Below, in pieces: positions 1,747 to 57,104 of a DNA stretch of 64,000 nt (positions are counted from its first letter, which is position 1; every line of letters starts with the position of its first letter). The notes below the pieces were generated by a model. The model saw nothing but the letters and a program-made list of their open reading frames with translations. It did not search any database and was not told the DNA's origin. The stretch comes from Thiorhodovibrio litoralis (lineage in GTDB: Bacteria; Pseudomonadota; Gammaproteobacteria; Chromatiales; Chromatiaceae). Both the position numbers and the translations under genes were made by a program. Location of the stretch: positions 4,760,501 to 4,824,500 of the forward strand of contig NZ_CP121473.1 of assembly GCF_033954455.1 (NCBI RefSeq). Reading direction: 5' to 3'.

Positions 1747-1851
1747 TTTTGGACCGGGTAACGCGCGCGGGGGACGCCGTGAATACTTCCCTGTAGGCTT
1801 CCCGGCGGCGTCCTGCCGCCGAGACCCCCGCGCGCGTTACCCGGTCCAAAA
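1747..1851 (-). repeat. Dispersed hairpin element, copy 1
   Basis: Perfect 27-bp inverted repeat (1747-1773 with 1825-1851) enclosing a core that contains an inner hairpin (1804-1809 with 1815-1820). Read on the minus strand, the 61-nt segment from the G5 to the C5 run differs from copy 2 (5886-5988) at one base. The outer arms share no long sequence with the other copies. It lies just after fabA in noncoding DNA. See copies at 5886 and 26435. Confidence 0.85.
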
Positions 1852-5885: not shown

Positions 5886-5988
5886 GCTGGGCCGGTTGAC
5901 GCTCGCGGGGGTCTCGGCGGCAGGACGCCGCCGTGAAGCCTACAGGGAAGTATTCACGGCGTCCCCCGCGAGCGTCAACCGGCCCAGC
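5886..5988 (+). repeat. Dispersed hairpin element, copy 2
   Basis: Perfect 26-bp inverted repeat (5886-5911 with 5963-5988) around the conserved core. The core contains an inner hairpin GGCGGC/GCCGCC and the segment GAAGCCTACAGGGAAGTATT. The arms differ entirely from copies 1 and 3 yet pair perfectly. It lies in the 5715-6060 gap between the 2Fe-2S gene and the rsmF-like gene; nothing else is seen in that gap. Confidence 0.85.
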
Positions 5989-26434: not shown

Positions 26435-26542
26435 GCTCCGGGTTGGGTTGCGGGCGCGGGGGTCTTGGCAGCAGGGATGCTGCCATGAAGCCTACAGGGA
26501 TGTATTCACGGCGTCCCCCGCGACCGCGACCCAACCCGGAGC
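26435..26542 (+). repeat. Dispersed hairpin element, copy 3
   Basis: 28-bp inverted repeat (26435-26462 with 26515-26542) with one mismatch and one G-T pair, around the same core as copies 1 and 2. The inner stem reads GGCAGC/GCTGCC instead of GGCGGC/GCCGCC, so both sides changed together. It lies between ruvB and the ABC transporter operon. Confidence 0.85.
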
Positions 26543-56589: not shown

Positions 56590-57104
56590 CATCAATCCAG
56601 TCGCAATCAAACGATAGAGTAGAGAGCAGGTTGCCAACACTTTGGTCGCGGCTTATCCGTTGGCCGCCCCTTTCGTCTGGCGGTGCCTAAATAGCCGAGG
56701 CATGGCGTTGACAACCAGCCCTCCCTCATCAAACCGTGCATGCGATTTTCCCGCACACGCTGGCGTTGGTGGCCTCTCTCCACCCCCGCTACGGATCTCC
56801 AACACTGGACAGATAAGTCTTCAAGAACATGCCGCCCCTGCTACCCCGAGAGACGATGACCACCACTTCCGTTCTTCGAGTGGCCACCCAACGGCCTTCC
56901 CCATCTGGCCACAGGGTCGGCGTCTCCAACCTTTGTTCACGAGGCTACATCTAGGTTCACTTGCGTTACGGCCTGCTCTCTTGCTGTGTGGAAACTTACG
57001 ACCCCTTGTTACCAAGACGCCGCTTCCTCATGCTACCGAGGCGTACGGACAACTCCCCGGACGGGACCATAACCCGCTAGACTTACTGTTGTTACTGCGA
57101 ACGG
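56590..57104 (-). mobile_element. Group II intron-like RNA remnant (no intron-encoded protein)
   Basis: Read on the minus strand this holds text typical of bacterial group II introns: GTGAACCTAGATGTAGCC, GAACAAAGGTTGGAGACG and the hairpin GTGTGCGGGAAAATCGCATG followed by CACGGTTTGATGAGGGAGGG. No reverse transcriptase reading frame is present. It abuts an attC-like site at 57152, the kind of target used by group IIC-attC introns. Assignment rests on recalled motifs. Nothing else is seen between 56519 and 57150. Confidence 0.5.

Follow-up and report, generated by a model that had tools for sequence, protein, structure and literature searches.

Background

CsrB/CsrC and RsmX/Y/Z are sponge RNAs in which several ANGGA hairpin loops titrate CsrA/RsmA, and the name of a further candidate RNA, TwoAYGGAY, denotes two AYGGAY loops. 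According to excerpts of the published descriptions, the hosts of TwoAYGGAY include gammaproteobacteria (PMC2864571), the SELEX consensus for CsrA is RUACARGGAUGU and CsrA bridges sites that are 10–63 nt apart (PMC7652899), and the RsmN/RsmA motif is ANGGAN (PMC3791407).

The YPAL/RU-2 repeats are described, again in excerpts, from Yersinia and Erwinia carotovora (PMC2229807), and they have been counted across Yersinia, with 3 more in E. coli (PMC2847712). YPAL is reported there to lack TA termini, to have target duplications of 3–26 bp, and to have targets of near dyad symmetry (PMC2229807). REPs, as excerpted, are 20–40 bp long (PMC3733652).

We analyzed a stretch of 64,000 nucleotides from Thiorhodovibrio litoralis (hereafter, the window) that contains three hairpins with a shared core. 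The original prediction, which was made from the letters alone, would have been refuted if the core were a fragment of a known element, and this is largely the case: the core is that of Yersinia YPAL/RU-2. The RU-2 sequence of Y. pestis, as excerpted (PMC2759123), contains it with 2 substitutions in 25 specified positions. Because the core is shared with YPAL/RU-2, the kind of element is known. Our preferred reading, which we would give a probability of about 0.4, is that this is a small non-autonomous mobile palindrome whose folded strand would be an RNA bound by CsrA/RsmA, with the copies serving as decoys or local sites.

Three copies in the window

The copies and their parts are as follows; P1 is the outer stem, and P2 and P3 are the two inner hairpins.

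1747..1851, minus strand: copy 1, whole hairpin; P1 arms 1825-1851 and 1747-1773
1803..1821, minus strand: copy 1, P2 hairpin; loop with AGGA
1776..1798, minus strand: copy 1, P3 hairpin; GCC-TAC[AGGGAA]GTA-TTCAC-GGC
5886..5988, plus strand: copy 2, whole hairpin; P1 arms 5886-5911 and 5963-5988
5915..5933, plus strand: copy 2, P2 hairpin; loop with AGGA
5938..5960, plus strand: copy 2, P3 hairpin; ANGGAN loop at 5944-5949; the less stable of two folds
26435..26542, plus strand: copy 3, whole hairpin; P1 arms 26435-26462 and 26515-26542
26466..26485, plus strand: copy 3, P2 hairpin; loop AGGGAT
26490..26512, plus strand: copy 3, P3 hairpin; loop AGGGAT at 26496-26501

All three of the predicted elements are present, with copy 1 in the minus orientation and copies 2 and 3 in the plus orientation, and the cores of copies 1 and 2 do differ by a single base. 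With up to 3 mismatches allowed, a 26-nt core pattern had 3 matches in the window, versus 0.00 expected. Each copy folds far more stably than its shuffles (z from -9.7 to -10.2; 0 of 200 shuffles equal), with copy 1 taken in this test on the strand opposite to the modeled one. P3 is not part of the minimum-energy fold of copy 2. No Rfam family matched the window hairpins at or above its gathering score. Elsewhere in the window, there is a group II intron on the minus strand at 56834-57070 (RF02005, 75.6 bits).

A family of hairpins with covarying arms

The same core pattern (up to 3 mismatches) had 33 matches in the 5.47-Mb genome, and a reversed-pattern control had none. Searching the genome with a covariance model built from 32 of its own copies gave 39 strong copies, one weak copy, and one truncated copy; most of the low-scoring rows were these palindromes again, taken from the opposite strand. 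The original prediction described the outer arms as unrelated between copies, and this did not hold up: 30–33 genomic copies align as one family with covarying arms. Across the genome, the arm consensus is about GGTTTTGGGCCGGGTGACGGGCGCGGGGG plus its complement, with compensating changes; copies 2 and 3 of the window belong to this arm family but have diverged within it. Because the arms are homologous, an element that acquires new arms is not needed to explain the copies in this genus.

The core is also found well beyond this genus. With up to 3 mismatches, it was present in 38 of 369 gammaproteobacterial genomes (up to 531 matches per genome), and the reversed control had 0 matches in all of them. 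In a survey of the phylum, with a slightly different pattern and up to 2 mismatches, 11 of 299 genomes had the core and all 11 were gammaproteobacterial; by a hand count, gammaproteobacteria made up about 87 of the 299, and the other 212 or so genomes had no core. Carriers among the matches listed include Methylotuvimicrobium, Stenotrophomonas, Ectothiorhodospira, Thioalkalivibrio, and Rheinheimera. Among these listed matches, some genomes have arms that are almost wholly different between copies around a fixed core, as in Thioalkalivibrio metagenome-assembled genomes. We obtained 121 usable cross-genus hits from the 120 loci listed in the collection scan. In 75 of the 121, the element's own arms paired better than the 95th percentile of cross-copy pairings; another 24 scored low in arm pairing, and several of these are visibly truncated or chimeric. 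Thus, copies with non-pairing arms, which would have refuted the original prediction, do occur but are a minority (24 of 121).

Some copies are rearranged. A Methylotuvimicrobium copy (L077) is a chimera of two subfamilies, with a left half from one and a right half from the other joined across the core, which suggests recombination between copies. Copies at L005, L015, L018, and L031, and many in the congener G001, have an extra hairpin inserted in P2 (e.g., CCCTTGATCGGATCAGGG), and P3 is extended in a similar way in L286 and in the second copy of L156. At L247 (G001), the core and arms are inverted relative to the element's ends. L403 (G558:C1:93600-96400) contains, at 688-2052, a six-copy tandem array with a 227-bp unit in which, by eye, the core occurs together with a GTAG-type REP-like palindrome.

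A three-way junction supported by covariation

RNAalifold predicts a three-way junction, with 27 bp in P1, 6 bp in P2, and P3 as GCC-TAC(hexaloop)GTA-ttcac-GGC. In this model, one strand forms a long outer stem, P1, that closes a junction of two short hairpins, P2 and P3. Across 32 sequences, 24 of the 39 pairs showed a double-sided change, compared to 11.0 in shuffles, and 0 of 500 shuffles were as high; because the copies are related, these changes are not independent events. Similarly, 97.9% of the paired cells (39 pairs, 32 sequences) could pair, versus 89.1% in shuffles, and the signal was destroyed when partners were slid by 1–3 columns. The predicted two-sided change in the inner stem was seen in 5 of its 6 pairs. 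The TTCAC bulge and the GGCGTCC junction are conserved as strongly as the loops.

Across genera, the P3 stem varies (TAC/GTA, TCC/GGA, TGC/GCA, or CCC/GGG, and also GCC/GGC to GCG/CGC) but mostly still pairs, and C[ANGGAN]G is retained in most of the cross-genus hits listed. The lower P3 stem has lost its inner pair in G586 (8 of the 9 copies listed) and in G070 (2 of 2), with GCG against AGC or the less well-pairing GCA against AGC. P3 is length-variant or decayed in 10 of 110 copies. In L286, P3 is remodeled, and P3 of the copy matching its site (L221) is not.

One strand folds

On the modeled strand, the ratio of G-T to A-C mispairs was 31:6 in a MAFFT alignment, which was not fitted to the structure. 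It was 44:8 for the genome's own copies (42 rows, including one duplicate, one truncated copy, and one weak copy) and 158:49 for congener copies, both in model-fitted alignments, and 81:23 in other genera (from the 75 of 120 distinct hits whose arms are good). In RU-2 and in each of the three window copies, the modeled strand is also the one that folds at the lower energy.

These ratios bear on whether the palindrome acts as DNA, either as a protein-binding cruciform or with arms whose complementarity is maintained by templated correction, no folded strand being under selection. Such a palindrome could account for arms that are long and often perfect, and for the internal palindrome deletions in G001 that leave both ends. 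But it is symmetric between the strands and predicts equal numbers of G-T and A-C mispairs, and since G-T was in excess in all four counts, we consider it very improbable. Of the explanations that the original prediction had listed, a structured RNA is favored over a protein-binding cruciform because the fold is strand-specific.

The asymmetry was present whatever the orientation of the neighboring genes (70:17 for >>, 51:20 for <<, 37:12 for <>, and 25:3 for ><, after exclusion of the duplicate and of four rows that were weak or truncated), and it was similar for copies that are sense or antisense to both neighbors (Fisher p 0.26). Therefore, it is not due to transcription from the neighbors.

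Placement relative to genes

Just 4 of 112 copies overlap an ORF (as called by a codon-usage script), and the rest are intergenic. By eye, one copy in G001 (L238, around 1501-1621) lies inside an ORF that resembles bioF. Among 108 copies from three genomes, the orientations to the neighbors were 39 >>, 32 <<, 23 <>, and 14 ><. G001 alone had 18 >> and 19 <<. We rejected a role in 3' UTRs as judged from orientation, as there was no clear bias over the three genomes. For window copies 2 and 3, the genes on both sides run against the GGA strand (the strand that carries the GGA loops considered below), so read-through from these genes would yield the wrong strand.

A related idea is that the element acts in cis, with read-through into the hairpin altering the stability or termination of neighboring transcripts. 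YPAL might influence the stability of upstream transcripts, as suggested in the excerpted PMC2229807, and work cited there showed a transcript effect for ERIC. The great stability of the hairpins and their mostly intergenic location would fit, as would the own genome taken alone, in which 19 copies are sense to both neighbors versus 8 that are antisense. Against this, there is no clear preference over all three genomes, and the strand asymmetry is also seen in copies that are not sense to a neighbor. We therefore view a cis-acting mRNA structure as improbable.

Mobility and retention in place

That the element is a palindromic mobile element, as had been proposed, is borne out by its roughly 40 copies in this genome, by copy-number differences between congeners (at least 63 copies in G001 and about 8 in G002), and by sites that are empty in relatives. 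For example, G001 and G002 both lack window copy 1 at the corresponding place: their matching blocks are separated there by about 47 and 63 bp, versus 507 here. In G001, the element ends in TATACC...GGTATA, with the ends 158–176 bp apart (13 measured), and at least 5 of these 13 sites (L236, L238, L243, L249, and L259) matched across the junction in an element-free relative. No target duplication was readable at the 13 G001 sites, whose flanks are too diverged for base-exact empty sites.

G001 contains 55 right ends, of which 22 are outside the hairpin list; we read 20 loci by eye, which hold 21 of these, and recognized no transposon that might be an autonomous version sharing the right end. 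At least eight of the right-end loci keep both ends with the palindrome deleted (L352, L353, L358, L363, L366, L367, L369, and L370), and the others keep the right half or less. Deletion of the central palindrome is as expected of palindrome instability. A RAYT/REP-type partner was also rejected: with up to 6 mismatches, the core was in none of 32 Y1_Tnp loci examined (of 99 matches), each scanned for about 1.5 kb on either side, and three carriers (G254, G332, and G095) have no Y1_Tnp match at all. Window copy 2 (161 bases, blastn) had no match in plasmids or phages, and viral contigs had 0 exact matches to the core.

Using the flanks, we found ten pairs of copies at corresponding places in different genomes, six by both flanks and four by one flank. 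One of the six (L017/L224) is doubtful, as the flanks of L224 are joined without the element in G000, about 0.5 kb from L017. Window copy 2 has a counterpart in G001 by both flanks and in G002 by the left flank only. At this site, all 29 P1 pairs are kept in the three species, with 5 double-sided changes and 0 broken pairs; G001 and G002 share the changed arms, so these changes count as one set. The hairpin columns are 85% identical, versus 29% and 33% for the adjoining flanks. Window copy 3 has a counterpart in G002 (by its right flank) that is decaying, with 1 double-sided change and 4 pairs broken in one of the two copies. The family as a whole thus retains the fold, and window copy 2 retains it in place. 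Selection on structure, which had been proposed from the inner stem, is supported by the covariation relative to shuffles, the strand-specific wobble, and the in-place pairing at copy 2.

It is quite possible that the folded strand of this mobile element matters instead as single-stranded DNA (or RNA) in transposition, with the core and loops as the recognition site of a trans-acting factor and any likeness of the loops to CsrA sites being convergent. This could explain why strand specificity is independent of the orientation of neighboring genes, why the bulge and junction are conserved as much as the loops, why copy number differs so strongly between congeners, and why window copies 2 and 3 are antisense. 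But no partner gene was found at the 32 Y1_Tnp loci examined (of 99 matches), three carriers lack Y1_Tnp matches, and paired changes at one place in three species are not expected of spent insertions. The location of loop variation, at the N positions of the CsrA motif, also counts against it, as described next.

GGA loops and the CsrA/RsmA motif

The P3 loop contains GGA in 40 of 40 own copies and in 65 of 71 congener copies, and the P2 loop does so in 38 of 40 and 67 of 71. Among 121 cross-genus hits, 106 have a P2 hairpin of at least 5 bp, and 91 of these have GGA in its loop. P2 loops are often a shorter AGGA. In most copies, the P3 loop is ANGGAN, with a C-G closing pair and a short stem; written as RNA, UAC[A-N-G-G-A-N]GUA agrees with the published CsrA/RsmA consensus except at the first base. 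Among 100 aligned copies, the specified loop bases had frequencies of.91 (A),.98 (G),.99 (G), and.99 (A). The two N positions had entropies of 1.08 and 1.66 bits, versus 0.08–0.48 elsewhere in the loop (100 of 110 copies aligned), and of the 29 core positions, these two and stem position 7, which covaries, vary the most. Because the model that retrieved the congener copies was itself built on the own copies, these loop statistics are not entirely independent of how the copies were searched for, and the surveys are not independent evidence for the N positions because the core patterns left those positions open.

Under our preferred reading, a mobile palindrome related in its core to YPAL/RU-2 would have dispersed through gammaproteobacterial chromosomes, and its folded GGA strand would act as RNA. 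A CsrA/RsmA dimer might then bridge the P2 and P3 loops, and transcribed copies might serve as CsrA decoys or as local CsrA sites. Several observations count against a role for CsrA. The conserved TTCAC bulge and GGCGTCC junction do not belong to a CsrA site, both neighbors run antisense to window copies 2 and 3, the Rfam model Ysr224 matches the opposite strand (see below), and there is no association with csrA. The length-variant, decayed, remodeled, and broken forms of P3, and the minimum-energy fold of copy 2, which lacks P3, also speak against it. Specifically, csrA was found in 35 of 38 carriers and in 278 of 331 other genomes, which has no discriminating power; the carriers G085, G211, and G358 are not among the csrA-matching genomes.

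In the literature we searched, no paper joined YPAL and CsrA, and a search with six core 15-mers returned no paper. The link between YPAL-type repeats and the CsrA/RsmA motif, as it appears from sequence, therefore seems to be new. If RNA from the GGA strand does bind CsrA, then mobile DNA has been distributing preformed ligands for a master regulator that acts post-transcriptionally, programs under CsrA control would be heritably tuned by copy number, and a function would be suggested for YPAL-type repeats. A broader idea, which we put forward as speculative and rather unlikely, is that class-wide mobile repeats with twin CsrA/RsmA docking hairpins make up a distributed and evolvable titration system, in which CsrA binding keeps the strand-specific fold and single copies are domesticated in place. 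Even without CsrA, a mobile palindrome this short, folding on a single strand and kept by paired changes at one site in three species, is a clean test case for how structure is maintained in non-coding repeats.

Comparison with known systems

Of the described repeats, YPAL/RU-2 (Yersinia palindromic sequence, about 168 bp) is also intergenic, dispersed, and mobile in the excerpted descriptions. RU-2 folds with the same outer stem P1 and P2, and its full P3 is 1.3 kcal/mol above the minimum. Recent mobility, which is a trait of YPAL/RU-2, is seen here in the copy-number and site differences between congeners. The arms differ, and so do the termini: YPAL, as excerpted, lacks TA termini, whereas the G001 copies end in TATACC/GGTATA, and we therefore class the element as a related variant and not as YPAL itself. 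The excerpted descriptions of YPAL/RU-2 mention neither a three-way junction nor a CsrA motif.

None of 16 loci scanned against Rfam had a match at or above a gathering score. Below that level, RF02770 (Ysr224, Yersinia sRNA 224), whose model holds the reverse complement of the core and P2, matches the elements in 9 of the 16 loci, always on the opposite strand, with a best score of 32.2 bits versus a gathering score of 70. Some copies score equally high with microRNA hairpin models, so this match is partly a likeness between hairpins.

ERIC and the Correia/NEMIS MITEs are, in the excerpted descriptions, likewise short, palindromic, and mostly intergenic, with TA at their ends; we set them apart by description, as separately named elements with other sequences. 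GTAG REPs and REPINs with RAYT are palindromic repeats as well, and the opposite strand of our core contains GTAG, but the element was not found beside Y1_Tnp genes (0 of the 32 loci examined, of 99 matches). Finally, the element shares GGA hairpin loops of the CsrA/RsmA motif with CsrB/CsrC and RsmX/Y/Z. Those are dedicated sRNA genes, whereas this repeat is mobile and dispersed, and each of its copies has two loops.
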